A stretch of 64,000 nucleotides of DNA, taken from assembly GCF_030161375.1 (NCBI RefSeq), contig NZ_BSSQ01000011.1:62001-126000 (forward strand), written 5' to 3'. Position 1 is the first letter of the stretch, and each line of letters opens with the position of its first letter. The stretch comes from Paenibacillus glycanilyticus. Lineage in GTDB: Bacteria > Bacillota > Bacilli > Paenibacillales > Paenibacillaceae. Shown here one piece after another: positions 14,572 to 57,099 of this stretch. The notes under the pieces are model-generated. The model saw only the letters and a list, made by a program, of their open reading frames with translations, made no database searches and was not told the origin of the DNA. The translations under genes were made by a program, and so were the position numbers.

Positions 14572-15246
14572 TTGTACGGCTTGTTTAGTGCGGGTATTGG
14601 TAAATAATCCAAGAGCGATAACGAGAACGATAATAACGGCAAGGAACGACCAATAGATAGCGGGATTATCCTTGAAGAAATCTTCGAACGCCTTTTCATG
14701 AGTGATCATCTTGGCAGCTGTATAAGCAAGGACGCCGGAACCGATATACACGATCCAAGTAAATTTGTTGATGAGTTTAATGAACAGGGTTGAGCCCCAG
14801 ACGATCACCGGAACACTGATCAGAAGTCCTAGAATAACGAGCAGCGTGTTGCCGTGCGAAGCGCCGGCTACAGCGATTACGTTATCAATTCCCATCGCGG
14901 CATCCGCGATAATAATCGTTTGAACCGATTGCCAAAGGGTGTTGCCGGCTTTAATATTGTGGCTATCCTCTTGCTGGACGAGCAGCTTATAGGCGATCCA
15001 CAAGAGTAGGATGCCGCCGGCGAGGTGAAGCCAAGGCAAATCGAGCAGTTGAACGACGACAACAGTGGCAATGATCCGAATCCCGATCGCGCCGGCCGTA
15101 CCCCAAAGTACTGCCTTTTTCTGCTGATGCTGCGGCAAATTGCGAGCGGCCATACCTATGACAATGGCGTTATCACCTGCCAAGATGAGATCAATGAATA
15201 CAATGTTAAGCAATGCCAGCCAAAATTCTACCGTAAAAAAATCCAT
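14548..15246 (-). CDS. TerC-family integral membrane protein
   Basis: A 232-residue membrane protein with about seven hydrophobic segments. The family signatures LAGDNAIVIGMAARNLP and DAAMGIDNVIAVAGA carry the membrane-embedded acidic residues linked to metal ion handling. TerC proteins of Bacillus (YceF, YkoY, MeeF/MeeY) export Mn2+ and metallate secreted enzymes; that role is inferred here. Start at 15246 (MDFFTVEFW) is chosen for the GGAAGG upstream; the 17-residue extension from 15297 is not membrane-like. It is divergent from a second TerC gene. Confidence 0.87.
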   Translation of the reverse strand: MDFFTVEFWLALLNIVFIDLILAGDNAIVIGMAARNLPQHQQKKAVLWGTAGAIGIRIIATVVVVQLLDLPWLHLAGGILLLWIAYKLLVQQEDSHNIKAGNTLWQSVQTIIIADAAMGIDNVIAVAGASHGNTLLVILGLLISVPVIVWGSTLFIKLINKFTWIVYIGSGVLAYTAAKMITHEKAFEDFFKDNPAIYWSFLAVIIVLVIALGLFTNTRTKQAVQEKSSESL

Positions 15247-16776: not shown

Positions 16777-18615
16777 ATGCAAGCAAGAGAAAACATCCGC
16801 AATATCGCGATTATCGCCCACGTTGACCACGGTAAAACAACTTTGGTTGATAAGCTGTTGCAGCAATCAGGCACATTTAGAGAACATGAAGCTGTTCAAG
16901 AGCGGGCGATGGATTCCAACGACCTGGAACGCGAACGCGGTATTACGATCCTGGCGAAAAATACGGCAATCACGTACAAAGACTACCTTATTAATATCGT
17001 AGATACGCCAGGACACGCCGACTTTGGCGGCGAAGTGGAACGGATCATGAAGATGGTTGACGGCGTATTGCTCGTTGTTGACGCATTTGAAGGCTGCATG
17101 CCGCAAACGAAATTCGTATTGCGCAAAGCACTCGAGAGCAACCTTACGCCAATTGTTGTCGTCAATAAAATTGACCGTCCGAATGCCCGCCCTACAGAAG
17201 TTATTGATGAAGTGCTTGACCTGTTCATCGAGCTTGGCGCTAACGATGACCAGCTGGAATTCCCGGTTGTTTATGCTTCCGCTCTGATGGGTACTTCAAG
17301 CCTAGACGCCGAGAAACAAGACGATAACATGCAAGCTTTGTATGAAACGATTGTAAGCCACATCCCTTATCCAACTGAGACAGTTGACGAGCCGCTTCAA
17401 TATCTCGTAACTTTGCTCGATTACAACGAATACCTGGGACGTATCGCCGTTGGCCGCGTTAACCGCGGTATTGTTCGCCAAGGCCAATCCGTTGCGGTTA
17501 TTAACCGTGAAGGTGCGGTTAAGCAGGCTCGTATCGAGAAGCTATTTGGCTTCCAAGGTCTGAAGCGCATTGAGATTGAAGAAGCAGGCGCTGGCGACAT
17601 CGTTGCAATTGCGGGTATTAAAGACATTAATATCGGTGAGACCATCGCTGATCCTTCGCAACCGGAAGCTTTGCCGGTTCTGAAGATCGACGAGCCTACG
17701 CTTCAAATGACTTTCTTGGTCAACAACTCGCCATTCGCAGGCCGTGAAGGCAAATGGGTTACATCCCGCAAGCTTCGCGAGCGCCTCTTCAAGGAGCTTG
17801 AGACGGACGTTGCGCTTCGCGTTGAAGAAACGGAAAGCCCTGACGCCTTTATCGTATCCGGACGCGGTGAGCTTCACCTTGGCATCCTGATCGAGAATAT
17901 GCGCCGCGAAGGATTTGAGCTTCAGGTGTCTAAACCGGAAGTTATCATTAAGGAAGTAGACGGCGCGAAATCCGAGCCGTACGAGCGCCTCCTCATTGAC
18001 GTTCCGGAAGACAGCATGGGCGCTGTTATGGAGAGCCTTGGAACTCGTAAAGCCGAGATGGTTAACATGATCAACAACGGCAATGGTCAAGTTCGCTTGG
18101 AATTCATCATTCCTGCACGCGGATTGATCGGTTACCGTACTTCGTTCCTGACTCTGACGCGCGGCTACGGCATTATGAACCATGCCTTCGACAGCTATGG
18201 TCCACTTGCCGCTGGCGTTGGCGGACGTCACCAAGGCGTGCTTGTATCGAGCGAGACAGGTACATCGACCTTCTACGGCATGCTGGGCGTAGAAGACCGC
18301 GGTATTCAATTCGTTGAGCCGGGCACTGAAATTTACGAAGGTATGATCGTAGGCGAGCACACGCGCGATAACGACATCATCGTTAACATCTGTAAAGAGA
18401 AAGCACTGACTAACGTGCGTTCCGCAGGCAAAGATGATACCGTTAAGCTGAAAACGCCTCGTCTGTTCTCTCTGGAGCAAGCGCTCGAATATTTGAATGA
18501 TGACGAGTATTGCGAAATTACTCCGAAGTCGATTCGTCTGCGCAAGAAGATCTTGAACAAGAGCGAGCGCGAGCGTGCGGAGAAACACCGCAAGATGGCA
18601 CAAGCTAACGCATAA
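16777..18615 (+). CDS. typA: translational GTPase TypA/BipA
   Basis: A 612-residue ribosome-associated GTPase of normal length. G1 is AHVDHGKTT (14-22), G3 DTPGHADF, G4 NKIDRP. Domains II, III, V and the TypA-specific C-terminal domain follow. It assists ribosome assembly and growth under stress or cold. In B. subtilis this is ylaG, followed by ylaH as here. Codon use is strongly biased to the abundant set, as expected for a well-expressed gene. Confidence 0.96.
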
Positions 18616-18644
18616 TCACCAGGCAGGCACAAGGGGGTCACGGC

Positions 18645-18959
18645 ATGCAGCAATGGTTGAGCGACCATCACGCCGTTTCGTATTTGCTTATTCTTGGATT
18701 TACGGTTTATATCTTCAACAAAGTGTTCCGGGCAAACAATCAGAAGCTTCCGATTCTGAAAGAAGTGCTTGTCTACATTCTGATGGCCATCGGCTCGTTC
18801 GTGCTGATGGTCCTTCAGGTCGACAAGCTTCCAATTGTTCAATGTATGGGAATTGCCGTGCTGATGATGCTTATGCTTCGCGGCCGGCAGCTTTATGACA
18901 AATGGAAGAGTAACCGGGCCGGCAGCGGCGCCGTAAAGGAAGCTGATTCAGGCAAATGA
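18645..18959 (+). CDS. ylaH: YlaH-like membrane protein
   Basis: A 104-residue protein with a membrane segment near 12-27 and a hydrophobic pair near 42-60 and 66-82, followed by a basic and Ser/Gly-rich tail. The position directly after typA and the sequence LPILKEVLVYILMAIGSF match the Bacillus YlaH family. Its function is not known. AAGGGGGTCACGGC precedes the ATG; the next gene overlaps by 4 bp. Confidence 0.8.
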   Translation: MQQWLSDHHAVSYLLILGFTVYIFNKVFRANNQKLPILKEVLVYILMAIGSFVLMVLQVDKLPIVQCMGIAVLMMLMLRGRQLYDKWKSNRAGSGAVKEADSGK

Positions 18960-19228
18960 CGTTTGATGATGCCTTGTTCAACTGGCTGCAGATTCATATC
19001 GTAGCCGAAGACCGGCCGGATGATCGGGCAGCGCTGGATACTCGTGACTTTTTCGCGCAAATTTTGTCGGAAGATCACGGAGTTGCCAGTCTGCATATTT
19101 CGGCGACGGATGCGACGATGGTTCATGTCAAATATGAACGCAACGGACGTTCGAAGCTGCAAATGTATCCGCGGGAAGCTGCAGAGCAGCTTCTCGTTGA
19201 TATCAGATCCAATCCGAAATACAACTGA
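18956..19228 (+). CDS. small conserved hypothetical protein
   Basis: A 90-residue soluble, acidic protein starting MTFDDALFNWLQIHIVAEDRPDD. It overlaps ylaH by ATGA and is followed 18 bp later by the LCP gene, so it is probably translated from the typA-ylaH message. A mixed alpha/beta pattern can be guessed (helix 4-16, helix 26-38, strands ASLHISA and MVHVKYER, helix near 72-83). I do not recognise the family. It holds the slot of B. subtilis ylaI by order only; it lacks the cysteines of a zinc-ribbon protein. Confidence 0.75.
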   Translation: MTFDDALFNWLQIHIVAEDRPDDRAALDTRDFFAQILSEDHGVASLHISATDATMVHVKYERNGRSKLQMYPREAAEQLLVDIRSNPKYN

Positions 19229-40059: not shown

Positions 40060-41997
40060 ATGAAAGTATCAAATGTAACGTTGCGTCGCCGGTTGTTTAT
40101 CGTGCTGCTGATTACCGTGGCGGCTTTCGCCGGTTTGGTCTTCCGGCTTGCTTACGTGCAGTTGTGGCAAGGGGAGAAACTTTCTGCGAAAGCAGAGGAT
40201 TCCTGGCGGCGTGAAATTCCTTACAAGGCGAAGCGCGGAGAGATCTGGGACCGAAACGGAGTAAAGCTAGCGTATGATGTAAGTACGCCGTCCGTTCTGG
40301 CTATTCCCGTTCAAATTCCGGACAAACAGGCAACTGCGGCCAAGCTTGCGCCTTATTTGGACATGACGGAGGAAGCTCTCGTTAAGCTAATGTCCAAAAA
40401 GGAAATGATTGTGCAGTTAAAGCCGGGCGGCCGGAAAATGTCTCTCGACAAAGCCGAACAAGTCAGAGGCCTGCGACTGCCGGGCATCGTTGTTGCGGAG
40501 GACAATAACCGTTATTATCCTTATGGAAGCTTAGCGGCGCATTTGCTTGGGTTTACCGGGGTCGATAAAGGACTTACCGGGGTTGAAGCCAAATACAATG
40601 ATCAACTCACGGGAATTGACGGCAATGTTTCTTTCTTGTCGGACGCATCGGGCAAGATCATGCCGAACTCATCGGATACTTATAAGGCGCCGCAACAAGG
40701 CTTAACGATGGAACTTACCATTGACCAGCAAATTCAATCGGTCATGGAGCGGGAACTGGATCAAGCGATGACAGCCCTTCAGCCTGACGATATTATCGCG
40801 ATTGCGATGAATCCAAATACGGGCGAAATATTAGGCATGGCAAGCCGGCCTACTTATGAACCGGCTAACTTTAGGGAGTACCCAAGCGAAGTTTATAACC
40901 GAAATCTACCGATCTGGATGACTTACGAGCCAGGTTCGACATTTAAGATTATTACGCTCGCAGCGGCTATTGAAGAGAAGAAGGTTGATCTAAAGAACGA
41001 AACCTTCTTTGATCCCGGCGCCGTCGAGATCGGCGGAGCAAGGCTGCGCTGTTGGAAAAAAGGCGGTCATGGCAGCCAAACGTTCCTTGAAGTTGTGCAA
41101 AACTCCTGTAATCCGGGATTTGTAAACCTTGGCAATCGGCTTGGCAAAGAGAAGCTTTTCGATTATATTAAAAACTTCGGATTTGGTTCAAAAACAGGCA
41201 TTGATATTCCTGGCGAAGCGAATGGTATTTTGTTCAAGCTGGATAAGGTTGGTCCTGTAGAGCTTGCGACTACCGCGTTCGGTCAAGGCGTATCGGTAAC
41301 GCCAATCCAGCAGATTGCCGCCGTTTCGGCAGCGGTTAATGGCGGAACCTTGTATAAGCCGTTTGTTACTAAAGCTTGGATTAATCCGCAGATCGGAGAA
41401 ACCGTGAAGCAGAATGAACCGGAAGCGGTCCGCAAGGTCATTTCCGAGGACACGTCGAAGCAGGTGCGAGAAGCGCTCGAAAGCGTCGTTGCCCTTGGAA
41501 CAGGCGGCAATGCGTTTATTGACGGCTATAGAGTAGGCGGGAAAACGGGTACGGCGCAAAAAGTTATTAACGGACGTTATTCTCCCAACGAGCATATCGT
41601 ATCCTTCGTTGGTTTTGCTCCGGCAGACAAACCGGAGATCGTCGTATACGTTGCGGTAGATAATCCGCAAGGCATTCAGTTCGGTGGCGTCGTAGCGGCT
41701 CCAATCGTACGCAACATTATGGAAGACGCCTTAACAATTTTGCAGGTGCCGCCACGCGACAAACAAATTGACAAGAAGCTGAAGCTCGGCGAGAACCCGA
41801 TTGTGACGGTGCCTAACTTGGTTGGTCAATCGGTGTCCGATATTTACGAGGATATGAATATGAACTTCAACCTGTCGGCGGCCGGTTCGGGCAAGGTTGT
41901 CATCCGTCAGGCTCCGGCAGTAGGAGCAAGGGTGGAGAAAGGATCTACGATCCGTATTTATTTGGGTGATGAGGATGATCTAACAGATTCCCATTAA
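40060..41997 (+). CDS. spoVD: sporulation cortex transpeptidase SpoVD
   Basis: A 645-residue class B PBP, exactly the length of B. subtilis SpoVD. Membrane anchor at about 8-30; active site S293-T-F-K296 in EPGSTFK; a SCN-type second motif in QNSCNPGFVN; KTG in GGKTGTAQK; one PASTA domain at the C-terminus (about 580-640). It makes spore cortex peptidoglycan with SpoVE, which is downstream in the same cluster. A small inverted repeat ATGAGC/GCTCAT lies in the 100-bp gap before it. Confidence 0.92.
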   Translation: MKVSNVTLRRRLFIVLLITVAAFAGLVFRLAYVQLWQGEKLSAKAEDSWRREIPYKAKRGEIWDRNGVKLAYDVSTPSVLAIPVQIPDKQATAAKLAPYLDMTEEALVKLMSKKEMIVQLKPGGRKMSLDKAEQVRGLRLPGIVVAEDNNRYYPYGSLAAHLLGFTGVDKGLTGVEAKYNDQLTGIDGNVSFLSDASGKIMPNSSDTYKAPQQGLTMELTIDQQIQSVMERELDQAMTALQPDDIIAIAMNPNTGEILGMASRPTYEPANFREYPSEVYNRNLPIWMTYEPGSTFKIITLAAAIEEKKVDLKNETFFDPGAVEIGGARLRCWKKGGHGSQTFLEVVQNSCNPGFVNLGNRLGKEKLFDYIKNFGFGSKTGIDIPGEANGILFKLDKVGPVELATTAFGQGVSVTPIQQIAAVSAAVNGGTLYKPFVTKAWINPQIGETVKQNEPEAVRKVISEDTSKQVREALESVVALGTGGNAFIDGYRVGGKTGTAQKVINGRYSPNEHIVSFVGFAPADKPEIVVYVAVDNPQGIQFGGVVAAPIVRNIMEDALTILQVPPRDKQIDKKLKLGENPIVTVPNLVGQSVSDIYEDMNMNFNLSAAGSGKVVIRQAPAVGARVEKGSTIRIYLGDEDDLTDSH

Positions 41998-42006
41998 CTT
42001 ACGATG

Positions 42007-42081
42007 GTCAAGGAAGATGATAGATGCATCCTTCTTGACTTACTGTAGTCAAGGATGATGATATAAACCATCCTCCTTGAC
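42007..42081 (+). repeat. tandem near-identical hairpins between spoVD and murE
   Basis: GTCAAGGAAGATG (42007-42019) pairs with CATCCTTCTTGAC (42027-42039), and 41 bp on GTCAAGGATGATG (42048-42060) pairs with CATCCTCCTTGAC (42069-42081). The two hairpins can also pair crosswise. There is no U-tract. TATAAT follows directly at 42082-42087, 36 bp before murE, so a promoter element may lie here too. Confidence 0.7.
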
Positions 42082-42122
42082 TATAATGAGAGATAAAGAC
42101 CTACATATGGGAGGAATACAAC

Positions 42123-52210: not shown

Positions 52211-53458
52211 TTGAGCAGTAACGACATCATCGTCAGTTTGGACATCGGTACATCCAAAGTTCGTGCTATTATTGGTGAAGTGAACAACGGATCCATTAAT
52301 ATTATTGGAGTTGGATCTGCCGACTCGGAGGGTATTCGCAAGGGAGCTATTGTAGATATTGACCAGACCGTGCAGTCGATTCGCAGCGCGATTGAGCATG
52401 CGGAAAGAATGGTTGGCATTCAAATATCAGACGTCTATGTTGGGATTCAAGGGAATCACATTGCACTTCAGACGAATCGTGGCGTTGTTGCAGTATCCAA
52501 TGAGGATCGTGAAATAGGCGAGGAAGATATCGAACGTGTTATTCAAGCGGCCAAGGTTGTCGCGCTTCCTCCTGAGAGAGAAATTATTAATTTGGTACCG
52601 AAGCAATTTTTGGTTGACGGCTTGGAAGGCATCTCGGATCCTCGCGGAATGATCGGCGTAAGGCTTGAGGTTGAAGCGACCATTGTAACAGGTGCAAAGA
52701 CGGCTATACATAACTTAATGCGCTGCGTAGAGAAGGCCGGACTGCAGATTTCGGGCGTGATCCTTATGTCACTTGCTTCTGGCGTCATGTCGCTTACGAA
52801 AGACGAGAAAACAATGGGAACCGTACTTACGGATATCGGTGCGGGTTCTACAACGATTACGATTTATGAGCAAGGCAGCCTTGCCGCGATATCGACATTG
52901 CCGATCGGCGGTGAATATGTCACCAATGATATCGCTTATGGACTGCGCACACAGTCGGAACAAGCGGAGAAGATCAAGCTGAAATACGGCTGCGCGTTTG
53001 TTGCCGATGCTGCTGAAGACGTGAAATTCAAAGTAACTCGCATGGGAAGCAATGTAGAGAAAGAGTTTTCCCAGGTGGATTTGGCTAGCATTATCGAGCC
53101 GCGCATGCAAGAGATTTTCCATCTTGTCCGTCAGGAAGTGCGCAATCTTGGTTACGGAGACAAAGTGAACGGATACGTACTCACTGGAGGTTCTGTGACG
53201 ATGCCGGGTACGCTGGCGCTTGCGCAAGCGGAGCTGGAGTCATCCGTTCGCATCGCGTCGCCGGATTATATCGGTGTGCGCGACCCTGCGTATAGCAGCG
53301 GGGTAGGAATGATCCAATACGTGTCGAAATATATGGGAGTACGAGGAGCAGCAACAAGTACAGGGAAGAAAACGGCAAGCCGCAAGTCGGGTACCACCGC
53401 TTCATCCAAACCCGGTATGTTCGAACGGTTGAAAAATATGTTTAGCGAATTTATTTGA
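52211..53458 (+). CDS. ftsA: cell division protein FtsA
   Basis: A 415-residue actin-like protein that anchors FtsZ to the membrane. N-terminal phosphate 1 motif [17 protein letters not shown], later [14 protein letters not shown] and VLTGGS; a Ser/Thr/Lys linker and the C-terminal amphipathic helix [15 protein letters not shown] at 52211 follows GGGAGGTGCCGCGGG. Coupled with ftsZ 17 bp downstream. Confidence 0.95.
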
Positions 53459-53475: not shown

Positions 53476-54606
53476 ATGTTGGAGTTCGATTTGGATCTAG
53501 AGCAACTCGCTCAAATAAAAGTCATTGGTGTTGGCGGCGGCGGTAGCAACGCGGTTAATCGAATGATCGAAAACGGCGTTAAAGGCGTCGATTTTATAAC
53601 GGTAAATACGGATGCGCAAGCTTTGCATCTGGCAAAGTCCGAGCATAAGCTGCAAATCGGCGATAAGCTGACTCGTGGTCTTGGCGCGGGTGCTAATCCA
53701 GAGGTAGGCAAAAAGGCGGCTGAAGAGTCGAGAGAATTGGTTGTTCAGCAATTGAAAGGTTCGGACATGGTATTCGTGACGGCCGGCATGGGCGGCGGTA
53801 CGGGTACTGGCGCAGCTCCGGTTATCGCCGAGATTGCGCGCGAATGCGGTGCTCTTACGGTTGGCGTAGTTACTCGTCCGTTCACGTTCGAAGGCCGTAA
53901 ACGTTCCGCGCAAGCGGAGCTGGGTATCGAAGCGTTGAAGGAAAAGGTAGATACGCTGATCGTAATCCCTAACGACCGTTTGCTTGAGATTGTAGACAAG
54001 AAGACTCCGATGCTCGAAGCATTCCGCGAAGCGGACAACGTGCTTCGTCAAGCGGTACAAGGTATCTCCGACTTGATCGCGGTACCTGGTCTGATCAACC
54101 TTGACTTCGCGGACGTGAAGACGATCATGACGGAGCGCGGTTCGGCGCTGATGGGTATCGGTATCGCCACAGGCGAGAACCGTGCAGCAGAAGCGGCTAA
54201 GAAAGCCATCATGAGCCCGTTGCTCGAGACGTCCATTGACGGCGCTCGCGGCGTAATCATGAACATTACGGGCGGCAGCAACCTGTCCCTGTATGAGGTC
54301 AATGAAGCAGCCGAGATCGTTATCTCCGCTTCCGATCCGGAAGTAAATATGATCTTTGGTGCAATTATTGACGAAGATCTGAAAGATGAAATCAAGGTTA
54401 CGGTTATTGCAACAGGTTTCGAGAGCAAGCCAACCGCTGCAACTCGCCGTGCGCCTCAGCCGCAAGCTGAGCCGGAAGCACGCCCGACACCGACGCCTGC
54501 GTCGGCTTCGCAGCAAGCTGCCCCGGTTAAGCCGTTTGGCGCATCGACTTCGAGCGACCAGCTCGAAATCCCCGCGTTCCTGCGCAACCGTCGCAACGAC
54601 CGTTAA
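53476..54606 (+). CDS. ftsZ: cell division GTPase FtsZ
   Basis: A 376-residue tubulin homologue forming the Z-ring. GTP motifs: [24 protein letters not shown] (106-115), and NVDFADV-type [14 protein letters not shown] Pro/Ala/Gln-rich linker precedes the C-terminal peptide [11 protein letters not shown] that binds FtsA and SepF. ATG at 53476 ([10 protein letters not shown]) matches the family; the TTG at 53455 overlapping ftsA does not. Confidence 0.97.
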
Positions 54607-54611
54607 TCTTA

Positions 54612-54651
54612 TAACGCCTGACCGGTACTCCGGTCAGGCGTTATTTTTTTT
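54612..54651 (+). terminator. intrinsic terminator of ftsZ
   Basis: A 14-bp stem TAACGCCTGACCGG/CCGGTCAGGCGTTA around TACT, followed by TTTTTTTT. Confidence 0.9.
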
Positions 54652-54687: not shown

Positions 54688-55191
54688 CACCGTAAGCTCC
54701 AAAGGCAGCTAACAGGGTGGAAAAGTAACTAATGCTGCTGCTGTAAGCTTCAAAAGAAGCTTACACAGGTCGACCAGGCTTGCGTTACATGCAACTGCCG
54801 CACCGTAAGCTCCAAAGGCGGCTAACAGGGTGGAAAAGTAACCAATGCTGCTACTGTAAGCTCCAAAGGCGGCTAACAGCGTGGAAGAGTAACCAATGTT
54901 GCTGCTGTAAGCATCAAAAGAAGCTAACACAGGTCGACCAGGCTTACGTTACATGCAACTGCCGCACCGAAAGCTCCAAAGGCGGCTAGCAGGGTGGAGA
55001 AGTAACCAATGTTGCTGCTGTAAGCTTCAAAGGAAGCTAACACAAGTCAACCAACCCTACCATAAATGCAAACGTGGCACCGTAAGCTCCAAAGGCGGCT
55101 AACAGGGTGGAAAAGTAACCAATGCAGCTGCTGTAAGCTTCAAAGGAAGCTAACACAGGACAACCAACCCTACTATAAATGCAACTGCCTC
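54688..55191. repeat. composite tandem repeat, 113-bp unit
   Basis: Units begin with CACC(G)TAAGCTCC at 54688, 54801, 54965 and 55078. Spacings are 113, 164 and 113 bp; the 164 is 113 plus an extra 51-bp half-unit. Each unit holds half A (GTAAGCTCCAAAGGCGGCTA, then ACAGGGTGGAAAAGTAACCA) and half B (GTAAGCTTCAAAAGAAGC with a GTCGACCAGGCTTGCGTTAC-type tail). Half B has the inverted repeat GTAAGCTTC/GAAGCTTAC; half A has a weaker one, AGC.CC/GG.GGCT. A 113-bp period is not a multiple of three, so it is not a coding repeat. Confidence 0.88.
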
Positions 55192-55206
55192 ACGTAAGCA
55201 GAACCG

Positions 55207-55872
55207 TTACTTAAGTTTGTCATTATTAACAATGTAACAACGGACACGTTTCTCTCCGGAACCATGCTTAAGTAGTTTGTTATTTGCTAACATACTATGT
55301 AATAGGGTTCTAGTTCGCTTTTCCCCGATTTGTAGGTGCGCTCGAACATCAATCGGTCTCAAGGGCCTGCCAAGCCGCATGGCATACTTCAGAATCTCAG
55401 CCTCCAGTATCTCGTCCGCACTCACTTCATCTGTCCTGGGACGCCCCAAGCGCGAGCCGAAATACTGTTGCAGCGTTTGGATGCAGATCCGCGGCTTGTC
55501 CTTCACATCATCGTAAGAGAAACGCAGGACATCCCAGCCGTCGATCACCAGATGATTTTGCCTTGCTAAATTGTCCGAGAACTGCCAACGGCTAACGCCT
55601 GCGGCATGCGTGTTGTAGCCGTCTACTTCAATAGCAAGCCTCAAGACATCATCAACATAGGCAAAATCAAGATACCGCCTTCCCTCACGGAAATCGATTA
55701 GCTCAAACTCCGGATAAAGATGGTCAAATTGCAAGAATGCAGGCCACCACACTTTATCAAGAAACAGCTTGCCCTCATGGCTCACTCCTTCAGCCAATCT
55801 TCTTTTATTCTCACCGTTCCGTCTCTTAAGATGATCTTCGTACCAACTATTAAAAACTTCCTCATACGACAA
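55207..55872 (-). CDS. DUF559-like PD-(D/E)XK nuclease with C-terminal helical domain
   Basis: A 221-residue protein. The middle fits a Vsr/DUF559-type nuclease: D69 in RRYLDFAYV, E82-V-D84 in AIEVDG, then a D100...R104-Q run and GWDVLRFSYDDV. Residues about 150-221 look like a winged-helix part (DEILEAEILKYAMRLGRPL, TRTLLHSMLANNKLLKH). The substrate is unknown; relatives nick or cut DNA, some in repair, some linked to mobile elements. TTG at 55872 follows GGCGAGGAGCGTGACC. It lies opposite in strand to all flanking division and sporulation genes and directly beside the tandem repeats. Confidence 0.75.
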   Translation of the reverse strand: MSYEEVFNSWYEDHLKRRNGENKRRLAEGVSHEGKLFLDKVWWPAFLQFDHLYPEFELIDFREGRRYLDFAYVDDVLRLAIEVDGYNTHAAGVSRWQFSDNLARQNHLVIDGWDVLRFSYDDVKDKPRICIQTLQQYFGSRLGRPRTDEVSADEILEAEILKYAMRLGRPLRPIDVRAHLQIGEKRTRTLLHSMLANNKLLKHGSGEKRVRCYIVNNDKLK

Positions 55873-56175: not shown

Positions 56176-57099
56176 GTGGCTGTTTATGTCGATGTCATGT
56201 TTATGCGGGAGTTGCTTGTTGATGGCAGCATACTGCTGACTACCGCTTGGGTACGTCACATCCGGGCACGTCCTTGGCGGGTGTTGACGGCATCCAGCAT
56301 TGGTGCTTGTTACGTTGTTCTCATGCTTTATCCGCCGTTATCTATCTTATTTACATTGGCTGTAAAAATACTGATTTCGCTTCTTATGTTATGGGTTGCG
56401 TTTGGTTTCTCGTCAATCCAGAACTTATTCAGAAATATCGCCGCTTTCTACACCATTAATTTTGTTGCAGCGGGGGCGATAATCGGTATTCATTACTTGT
56501 TGATGCAAGGCTCAGGCGAAGTATGGCGTACGATCACCTTTATAAATGGCGGTATGCAGGTCGAGCTGAAGATGGGATTTATTTATCTTGTCGCGGCCTT
56601 TAGTATCGGCATTTACATATACCGCTCGGTTTATGTTCAGCGGCGTGAGAGGGAGCTGGTAAAAACCCATTTGGCCGAGGTGAAAATTCAAATCGGCGAC
56701 CGGGAGCATACATGCACCGGACTAATTGACACAGGGAACCAGCTGTACGATCCGTTAACGCGGACGCCAGTTATGGTTGTTGAAGCAAACTTGTGGCAAG
56801 ATGATCTGCCGGAATCCTGGATGAAGAGCATCCGGGAATCTCAAGTGGATCGGCTGGTTGCAGGACTTGGAGAAGAATCGTTTGCCTGGCAGGATCGACT
56901 GCGACTGGTACCCTACAGAGGAATCAATCGAGGATCGCAATTTATGCTGGCATTAAAACCGGATTATGTACAAATTGAGCGGGAAGGTCAAGTGTTCGTT
57001 ACACGGAAGGTGCTGGTCGGCATCGATGGCGGTAAACTTTCATCGGACAGCGCTTACCAAGCGATTATCCACCCGTCACTCGTTCAAAACAGCCAATGA
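56176..57099 (+). CDS. spoIIGA: sigma-E processing aspartic protease SpoIIGA
   Basis: A 307-residue protein with five N-terminal membrane segments (to about 150) and a C-terminal aspartic protease domain. The catalytic aspartate is about D185 in GLIDTGNQLYDPL. It cleaves pro-sigma-E in the mother-cell side of the sporulation septum after a SpoIIR signal. GTG at 56176 follows GGAAGGTGATGCT. sigE follows 51 bp downstream. Confidence 0.95.
   Translation: MAVYVDVMFMRELLVDGSILLTTAWVRHIRARPWRVLTASSIGACYVVLMLYPPLSILFTLAVKILISLLMLWVAFGFSSIQNLFRNIAAFYTINFVAAGAIIGIHYLLMQGSGEVWRTITFINGGMQVELKMGFIYLVAAFSIGIYIYRSVYVQRRERELVKTHLAEVKIQIGDREHTCTGLIDTGNQLYDPLTRTPVMVVEANLWQDDLPESWMKSIRESQVDRLVAGLGEESFAWQDRLRLVPYRGINRGSQFMLALKPDYVQIEREGQVFVTRKVLVGIDGGKLSSDSAYQAIIHPSLVQNSQ

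Follow-up and report, generated by a model that had tools for sequence, protein, structure and literature searches.

Between ftsZ and spoIIGA of Paenibacillus glycanilyticus, a nuclease gene lies against an array of short palindromes, and this arrangement, found in the 64,000-nucleotide stretch of DNA analysed here (the window), raises the question of whether the two are neighbours by accident or parts of one system. An earlier note on this DNA had proposed that the nuclease acts on the repeats or spreads with them. The left neighbour, ftsZ (53476..54606, forward strand), is convergent with the nuclease gene and was identified from its place and sequence, as the note had named it (its start was taken at the ATG at 53476, the listed ORF beginning at 53455). 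It is followed by an intrinsic terminator (54611..54644, forward strand) with a 15-bp perfect stem and a T run, separate from the palindromes. The right neighbour, spoIIGA (56176..57099, forward strand, start at about 56176), has a homologue in 51 of 51 genus genomes, and the position of nuclease and array between these two genes was rightly described. The array (54692..55155, forward strand) consists of nine palindromes of about 24 bp with spacings of 51, 62, 51, 51, 62, 51, 62 and 51 bp, which lie, without strand, at 54692..54714, 54743..54765 (perfect 10-bp arms), 54805..54827, 54856..54878, 54907..54929, 54969..54991 (two mismatches to the pattern), 55020..55042, 55082..55104 and 55133..55155. 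The pattern GTAAGCTYCAAARGMRGCTAACA was found at these nine places with zero to two mismatches and was absent from 100 shuffles. The last row reported by TRF ends at 55193, 13 bases before the last base pair of the nuclease gene (55207), which corrects the 16 bp given previously. Elsewhere in the window, a two-copy 41-bp tandem repeat lies at 41997-42082.

The nuclease gene (55207..55872, reverse strand) is an intact ORF that starts with TTG and codes for 221 amino acids, and an AlphaFold model (49 input sequences, mean pLDDT 91.4, pTM 0.66) gives it a predicted PD-(D/E)XK or EDxHD-like fold followed by a winged helix. Pfam matches are MTES_1575 (E 4.6e-5, 23.9 bits against a curated cut-off of 38.2) and DUF559 (E 1.6e-3, 18.7 against 20.6 bits); both are under the curated cut-offs, so that a relationship to these families is likely while formal membership is not reached. 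We take the DUF559 and MTES_1575 nucleases to be Vsr-like. The catalytic domain (residues 31-143, 55444..55782, reverse strand) is supported by conserved residues and by structural matches, and contains D69 (55666-55668), E82 (55627-55629), D84 (55621-55623) and H89 (55606-55608), all on the reverse strand. D69, E82, H89 and R104 never vary among the 62 aligned homologues or in the 49-sequence alignment; D84 is present in 56 of 62 homologues and in at least 90% of the 49 sequences; the D69 and ExD84 residues that the earlier note had picked out are therefore present, as D69 and E82-x-D84. The modelled core fold, together with the conserved D, E-x-D and H, places the protein among PD-(D/E)XK/EDxHD nucleases. 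Among the solved structures listed, the top match of the catalytic part is I-Bth0305I (3r3p, Z 10.3, rmsd 2.6, 97 residues aligned), and ngo0050 (3hrl, Z 10.1) is also among the highest. The added C-terminal domain noticed previously is modelled as a winged-helix, putatively DNA-binding, domain (residues 150-217, starting at about 150 by the model, 55222..55425, reverse strand; helices 152-167, 173-180 and 184-196, strands 200-203 and 212-215), and this part of the model matches many winged-helix chains with Z 9-10.5. Foldseek of the model against the PDB gave no match at E 0.001 or better and the NCBIfam search of the protein gave none, while a PDB sequence search up to E 5 returned just two matches (E 0.55 and 0.56), which were set aside as both are annotated as cyclic-nucleotide-binding proteins.

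The ftsZ-spoIIGA interval was compared in the 48 genus genomes in which it was parsed (G003 and G067 were unparsed and G065 was left out). It holds an intact nuclease in 13 of them, nuclease remnants in seven, and neither nuclease nor array in the other 28; empty sites, which the earlier note had proposed looking for in relatives, thus exist. Its term "inserted" has to be corrected, however, as the nuclease is common to many relatives (13 of 48 intact) and, as seven sets of remnants indicate, has been lost repeatedly; at this site, it is not a recent insertion in the window's genome. Later gains by transfer may also have occurred, since the tree, with at least five changes of nuclease state on well-supported branches and nine on the best tree, cannot tell gain from loss. 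TRF detected an array here in 10 of the 13 intact cases; among the seven genomes with remnants it found one (a small array in G064, whose nuclease copy is oppositely oriented), and among the 28 nuclease-free genomes none. In the other three intact genomes there are two exact units (G001) or three and four imperfect ones (G025 and G070, respectively, in which up to 3 of the 12 outer positions deviate). The copy at this site in G001 is 73% identical to the window nuclease, the same match being found in P. glycanilyticus MERTA38. In all 10 intact intervals that hold any exact palindrome of the window type, these lie on the 3' side of the nuclease alone.

The linkage extends to the wider family. 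Matches to the nuclease are present in at least 51 of 60 related genomes and at least 12 of 17 genera, and the window's genome itself has four copies, one of them with a frame break. The loci compared (up to 20 kb each) were 60 of the best matches to the window protein plus the three paralogues from its own genome and the window, G008:C80, G008:C64 and G025:C8 (contig ends) and G054:C77 having been left out of the top matches. A tandem array (period of at least 30, score of at least 150, unfiltered for coding repeats) lies within 500 bp of the nuclease in 33 of the 63 loci other than the window, which are best matches rather than a random sample, whereas 5000 random placements in the same regions, away from the nuclease, averaged 2.1 and never exceeded 7. 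Homologues beside repeats, which the earlier note had wanted checked and whose complete lack it would have counted against its idea, are therefore frequent. These array-adjoining nucleases are found in 21 of 34 genomes, six of which belong to other families of the same order. With a stricter definition (at least two perfect 7-bp hairpins) 19 of 64 loci, window included, have an array against 3.0 expected. For the remaining 30 of the 63 loci TRF gave no array within 500 bp, and of five broken or truncated nuclease genes just one has an array at that distance. Counting all loci, 28 arrays are on the 3' side and seven on the 5' side, and arrays on both sides were found only at L129 and at the broken G064 copy. 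The longest array, of 36 copies of 51 bp, lies about 0.2 kb from the nuclease of Cohnella mopanensis (L074), which is the only one of five named loci with a TRF array within 1 kb.

Consensus palindromes were obtained from 20 loci (for example CTGTAAGCAC..GTGCTTACAG, TTAAGGTCCCTNAGGGACCTTAA, AATAACGCT..AGCGTTATT and TAGATCTA..TAGATCTA); they are dyad-symmetric, of about 21-26 bp, with loops of 0-10 nt. Across 19 loci, the more alike the nucleases are, the more alike their palindromes: the Mantel rho is 0.50 with the catalytic part, a value that none of 2000 permutations reached, and 0.33 with the winged helix, reached by 1 of 2000, so the idea that the winged helix alone sets specificity is unsupported, the catalytic half being the better correlated. 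In 17 arrays from 16 loci, 79 of the 82 spacings under 90 bp are 40, 50-53, 58-62 or 72-73 bp, although spacings inside one array are not independent and all ten at 40 bp come from a single array. Spacings near 40, 51, 61 and 72 bp are steps of about one helical turn (4, 5, 6 and 7 turns), and a protein bound to neighbouring palindromes would therefore lie on one face of the DNA.

The spacers behave differently from the palindromes that they separate. In the window's genome, the arrays at C6:174k and C6:207k share the window palindrome (79-88% identity) and the 51/62 rule, while spacers among the three arrays are 26-44% identical (random, 35%). Spacers are near-identical inside one array and close to random between loci (0.44 for the window type, called A hereafter, and 0.39 for a second type, B, against 0.38 for random). 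They cannot be regarded as wholly unrelated local DNA, a view that is partly right given this near-random identity, yet misses weak shared motifs: the motif in the spacers of 51-bp A arrays (A51) reaches 7.4 bits against a shuffled mean of 3.1 and maximum of 3.4, and those of A61, B52 and B73 reach 10.5, 10.7 and 21.2 bits against 7.6, 6.0 and 9.6 in shuffled sequence. In the 27-bp spacers of the 51-bp A arrays this is a weak off-centre motif, approximately GTTACTC, seen in the window (54692-55155), L080, L264, L266 and L270, and the B73 spacers also have a shared motif. Such motifs could represent a cleavage site or deep homology. Comparison of orthologous sites by eye and by flank alignment revealed no clean target-site duplication or insertion boundary.

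Palindromes of type A are dispersed through the genomes that carry the intact gene. Forward-strand copies of TGTAAG-N12-CTWACA number 31, 17, 62, 32, 5, 63, 29, 12, 97, 123, 6, 9 and 1 in the 13 intact genomes (range 1-123, median 29). The seven genomes with a degraded gene have 0-26, and those without nuclease (28) have 0-2 apiece, the control with a reversed pattern giving 0-5. The outcome that the earlier note had named as contrary to its idea, repeats widespread without the nuclease, is thus not what is seen. At least five copies are present in 12 of 13 intact genomes against two of the 37 others, which include G003 and G067, G065 being outside the tree (Fisher 9e-9; this threshold, as well as that of 10 used for B, was set after the counts were seen), and copy number taken without any threshold also separates intact from other genomes (Mann-Whitney 5e-8). 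The exceptions are G070, which has an intact nuclease and one exact copy, G064, with a broken nuclease and 26 copies, and G026, with a remnant and eight. G021 is probably a coincidence in this comparison because the array at its ftsZ locus has another palindrome, of the TAAGGTAC type, and the 62 TGTAAG copies of this genome are probably partnered with another of its nucleases, that at L081; leaving G021 out makes the count 11 of 12. In 12 of the 13 intact genomes the ftsZ interval contains fewer than half of the A copies (16 of 123 in G069 and 7 of 97 in G071), the exception being G011, with 22 of 32 inside. Five phylogenetically independent pairs are available for A, with 3.7 in the same direction, 0.0 in the opposite direction and 1.3 without difference on average (p 0.125).

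At the sites orthologous to two solitary A arrays, relatives with a broken nuclease A have mostly degenerate palindromes or short gaps, single exact copies being left in G036 and G008 at one of them; G066 has arrays at both sites, and in G001 one site keeps three units, the other just one near-match. In 14 regions retrieved from G064 and 6 from G030, most palindrome sites hold two or three units or a short array, with spacings of 51/60-62 and 52/71-75 bp, and most are intergenic, falling inside an ORF, as called by a crude method, in L260, L261 and L271. One solitary A array (C6:174k) is bordered by a helix-turn-helix gene (L037:7681-8661, reverse strand) that by eye resembles MerR/RacA. At the other (L038:~6170, C6:~207.2k), the first palindrome lies about 30 bp past the upstream stop codon in the window's genome, and in the orthologues of G001 and G066 it overlaps that codon by eye, as TGTAAG contains TAA.

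A second pair was found with nuclease B (L096), whose palindrome is TTAAGRYCCYNNNRGGRYCTTAA. The seven genomes assigned nuclease B (59-100% identity) have 17-61 copies, two relatives without it (G000 and G063) have 5 and 8, and the other 42 of 51 have none, the control being zero everywhere. At least 10 copies are therefore found in 7 of 7 genomes with nuclease B and in 0 of 43 others; the boundary of nuclease B was drawn between G006 (59%) and G021 (58%) with knowledge of the palindrome in the L107 array. G021 has this 58% identical gene, with an adjoining array (L107) of another palindrome and no B palindromes, and if counted as B it changes the result to 7 of 8 against 0 of 42. In G030, nuclease B is truncated to residues 6-159, yet 45 B copies remain, suggesting that the decay of these palindromes would not be immediate. 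Four genomes with a broken nuclease A (G036, G072, G030 and G008) have 0-1 A against 17-61 B palindromes; these A-less, B-bearing genomes (B being truncated in G030) constitute a double dissociation of the two pairs. Both phylogenetically independent pairs available for B go in the same direction (p 0.5), and the pairs for A and B agree in direction and are too few for significance.

Other repeats were met on the way. In the window's genome, a third palindrome type (GCAGCAGGC-TTTTT-GCCTGCTGC, 62-bp spacing) lies beside the frame-broken paralogue (L040:6110-6515, C8:~170.1k) and a second array with a nearly identical palindrome lies at C6:~188.5k (in L242), possibly representing a third nuclease-palindrome pair in this genome. 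Repeat units of 57-70 bp with AAAGAATTnnAACCTAA or its complement and hairpin potential (L077:1977-2176, L109:1961-2098 and L039:6698-6808) form a family present in several genomes, away from this nuclease. Repeats of 38-40 bp built on CTTACGAAG(T/C)AGGTTTTGC or GCAAACCTA (L078:2689-2809 and 14974-15065; L080:13967-14091) have no nuclease near. In another family of the order, the nuclease has large 52-bp arrays at a distance of 6-7 kb (L102:15928-17340 and L108:2482-2936), and that of L102 may be a further pair acting at a distance, because GTGGAGTTTCTCCAC resembles the palindrome beside nuclease L131 of the same genome (G042). Finally, one intergenic site holds an array of one family in G036 (joined stretch, 18377-19211) and of another in the window's genome (C6:~188.5k), which suggests intergenic hot spots.

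The closest parallel is the REP/RAYT partnership. To our knowledge, RAYTs are the one enzyme class known as a partner of dispersed bacterial palindromes, and some palindrome families have none. According to PMC2817692 and PMC8049555, in that partnership the enzyme gene lies beside its own palindromes, the two co-vary, and palindrome number follows the enzyme gene. The short extragenic palindromes described here, many per genome and in doublets and regularly spaced mosaics, resemble REP, BIME and REPIN elements as presented there, and the lines of evidence for pairing are those used in PMC2817692: here too, palindrome number follows the partner gene (A, 12 of 13 against 2 of 37; B, 7 of 7 against 0 of 43, or 7 of 8). 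The enzyme, however, is a predicted winged-helix nuclease of the PD-(D/E)XK/EDxHD-like type and not a Y1 tyrosine (HUH) transposase. The GTAG tag, whose role in REP systems is treated in PMC8266576, was absent by eye from the 20 consensus 27-mers (TGTAAG..CTTACA, TTAAGG..CCTTAA, TAGATCTA and others). Unlike REPs, these palindromes have loops of 0-10 nt, spacings quantised by helical turns and arrays of up to 36 copies (L074), and the partner gene has its array on one side (28 3' against seven 5') rather than being flanked on both. The system thus seems to work like REP/RAYT without belonging to it, as enzyme, tag, layout and phasing all differ. Palindromic repeats without associated transposase genes have been reported as CGTC-tagged REPs (PMC3733652), which have another tag and other hosts.

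As to the enzyme, its predicted catalytic fold is like that of I-Bth0305I, which, according to PMC3943268, dimerises on a target of nearly 60 bp, a length close to that of a palindrome pair spaced by 51-62 bp. In contrast to EDxHD homing endonucleases, the gene is free-standing and lies beside, not inside, its presumed multicopy target, and it has a predicted winged helix where the phage EDxHD enzymes have NUMOD-type regions (same source). A homing gene copies itself into alleles without it, at the site that its enzyme cuts, and empty alleles do exist between ftsZ and spoIIGA. The nuclease shares its catalytic sequence family, under the cut-offs, with the DUF559/MTES_1575 nucleases, from which the winged helix and the cognate palindromes would mark it off as a group. 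The arrays are not CRISPR-Cas, since the spacers inside an array are near-identical rather than unique. No known anti-phage defence system was recognised, PADLOC giving zero families, which speaks of absence from its library.

The pairing of each nuclease with its own palindrome is strongly supported, by cis linkage, by the tracking of relatedness, by co-occurrence for two pairs, by the phasing, by the conserved residues and by the finding of no Y1 transposase, all of which are observed; binding, cutting, copying and any host benefit are inferred. The suggestion of a repeat-associated nuclease made in the earlier note has thus gained support from linkage and co-occurrence, and the nuclease may cut or copy the repeats. 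The explanation we favour, and regard as probable, is a two-part REP-like system in which each DUF559/EDxHD-like winged-helix nuclease is paired with its own palindrome, which spreads by cutting and repair. Palindromes stand in pairs or in tandem series, next to their nuclease gene and elsewhere, for the most part between genes; nuclease dimers would bind them, pair two that are in phase and cut at or between them; the break would be repaired from another copy, by which arrays would be homogenised and lengthened and new ones seeded; and once the nuclease gene dies the arrays would decay. What speaks for this proposal is that the palindromes are phased, that the units of an array are homogenised, that the system depends on an intact gene, and that the predicted fold matches I-Bth0305I.

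The main rival of this cutting-and-repair reading is a pure binding-site role. The palindromes would then be tight-binding operators whose task is to titrate the nuclease or to fix its position, as with a latent defence or repair enzyme kept on the chromosome, and it would be selection for binding, not spread through cutting, that maintains them. Dyad symmetry without a fixed loop, helical phasing and the winged helix all suit the binding of duplex DNA, and the decay of arrays after nuclease loss would also fit. We nevertheless consider it rather unlikely, as three features point to active amplification: the length of some arrays (up to 36 copies), whose local spacers are near-identical, the many dispersed loci and the differing array lengths at orthologous sites. 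PADLOC gave no match, and the window copy has its place among housekeeping genes.

Less probable still is that the palindromes owe their spread to another enzyme, the nuclease gene riding as a passenger in intergenic hot spots that both occupy. Other array types do occur at the same intergenic site in relatives, and some arrays are far from any nuclease match, but a passenger would explain neither the double dissociation of the A and B pairs nor the Mantel correlation. The obvious candidate for such an enzyme, a Y1 transposase or RAYT (Y1_Tnp, PF01797), has zero matches in every one of the 13 intact-A genomes; eight of 51 genomes do have one, each with 0-1 A palindromes, so RAYT was rejected as the partner.

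We give very little credence to a role of the palindromes as RNA (terminators or hairpin RNAs, the nuclease having an RNA function). The overlap of the first palindrome with the upstream stop codon at one site in G001 and G066 would agree with it, and the window array folds as a single strand slightly better than its shuffles (z -2.2). Rfam, however, gave no match at threshold, and hence no known RNA family, its one sub-threshold match (E 0.15) being at the ftsZ terminator; this terminator and a weak 6-bp stem beyond the last palindrome (55185-55201, reverse strand) are the only terminator-like sites found, and the predicted catalytic fold resembles that of DNA nucleases. That the two are chance neighbours, the array being an ordinary intergenic tandem repeat born of slippage, is barely credible even though tandem repeats also occur elsewhere in these genomes: the distance controls rule it out (33 of 63 against 2.1), the counts refuting it unless the choice of best matches as loci biased them, and it would leave aside the genome-wide co-occurrence and the palindrome and spacing rule shared by arrays with unrelated spacers.

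Returning to the cutting-and-repair reading, the partnership looks like a previously undescribed kind of repeat-spreading system, and a literature search, the scope of which excluded most subscription journals and all preprints, returned nothing linking this nuclease family to palindromic repeats. A more specific version, which we put forward tentatively and hold to be possible, is a new class of repeat spreading in which a homing-like dimer bridges palindromes separated by an integral number of turns and cuts between them, so that units of five, six or seven turns are added and local DNA is captured as the spacer. If true, arrays would "grow by the turn" and seed new sites, several independent nuclease-palindrome specificities would coexist in one genome, and the system would be the PD-(D/E)XK counterpart of REP/RAYT. 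The partnership predicts that the nuclease needs two palindromes in helical phase, and the approximately twenty palindromes lying beside their nucleases are natural enzyme-site pairs for the study of nucleases specific for long sites. An unrelated nuclease family tied to its own palindromes suggests convergent evolution of partnerships between repeats and enzymes, and this one may explain many of the tandem intergenic repeats in Paenibacillales.
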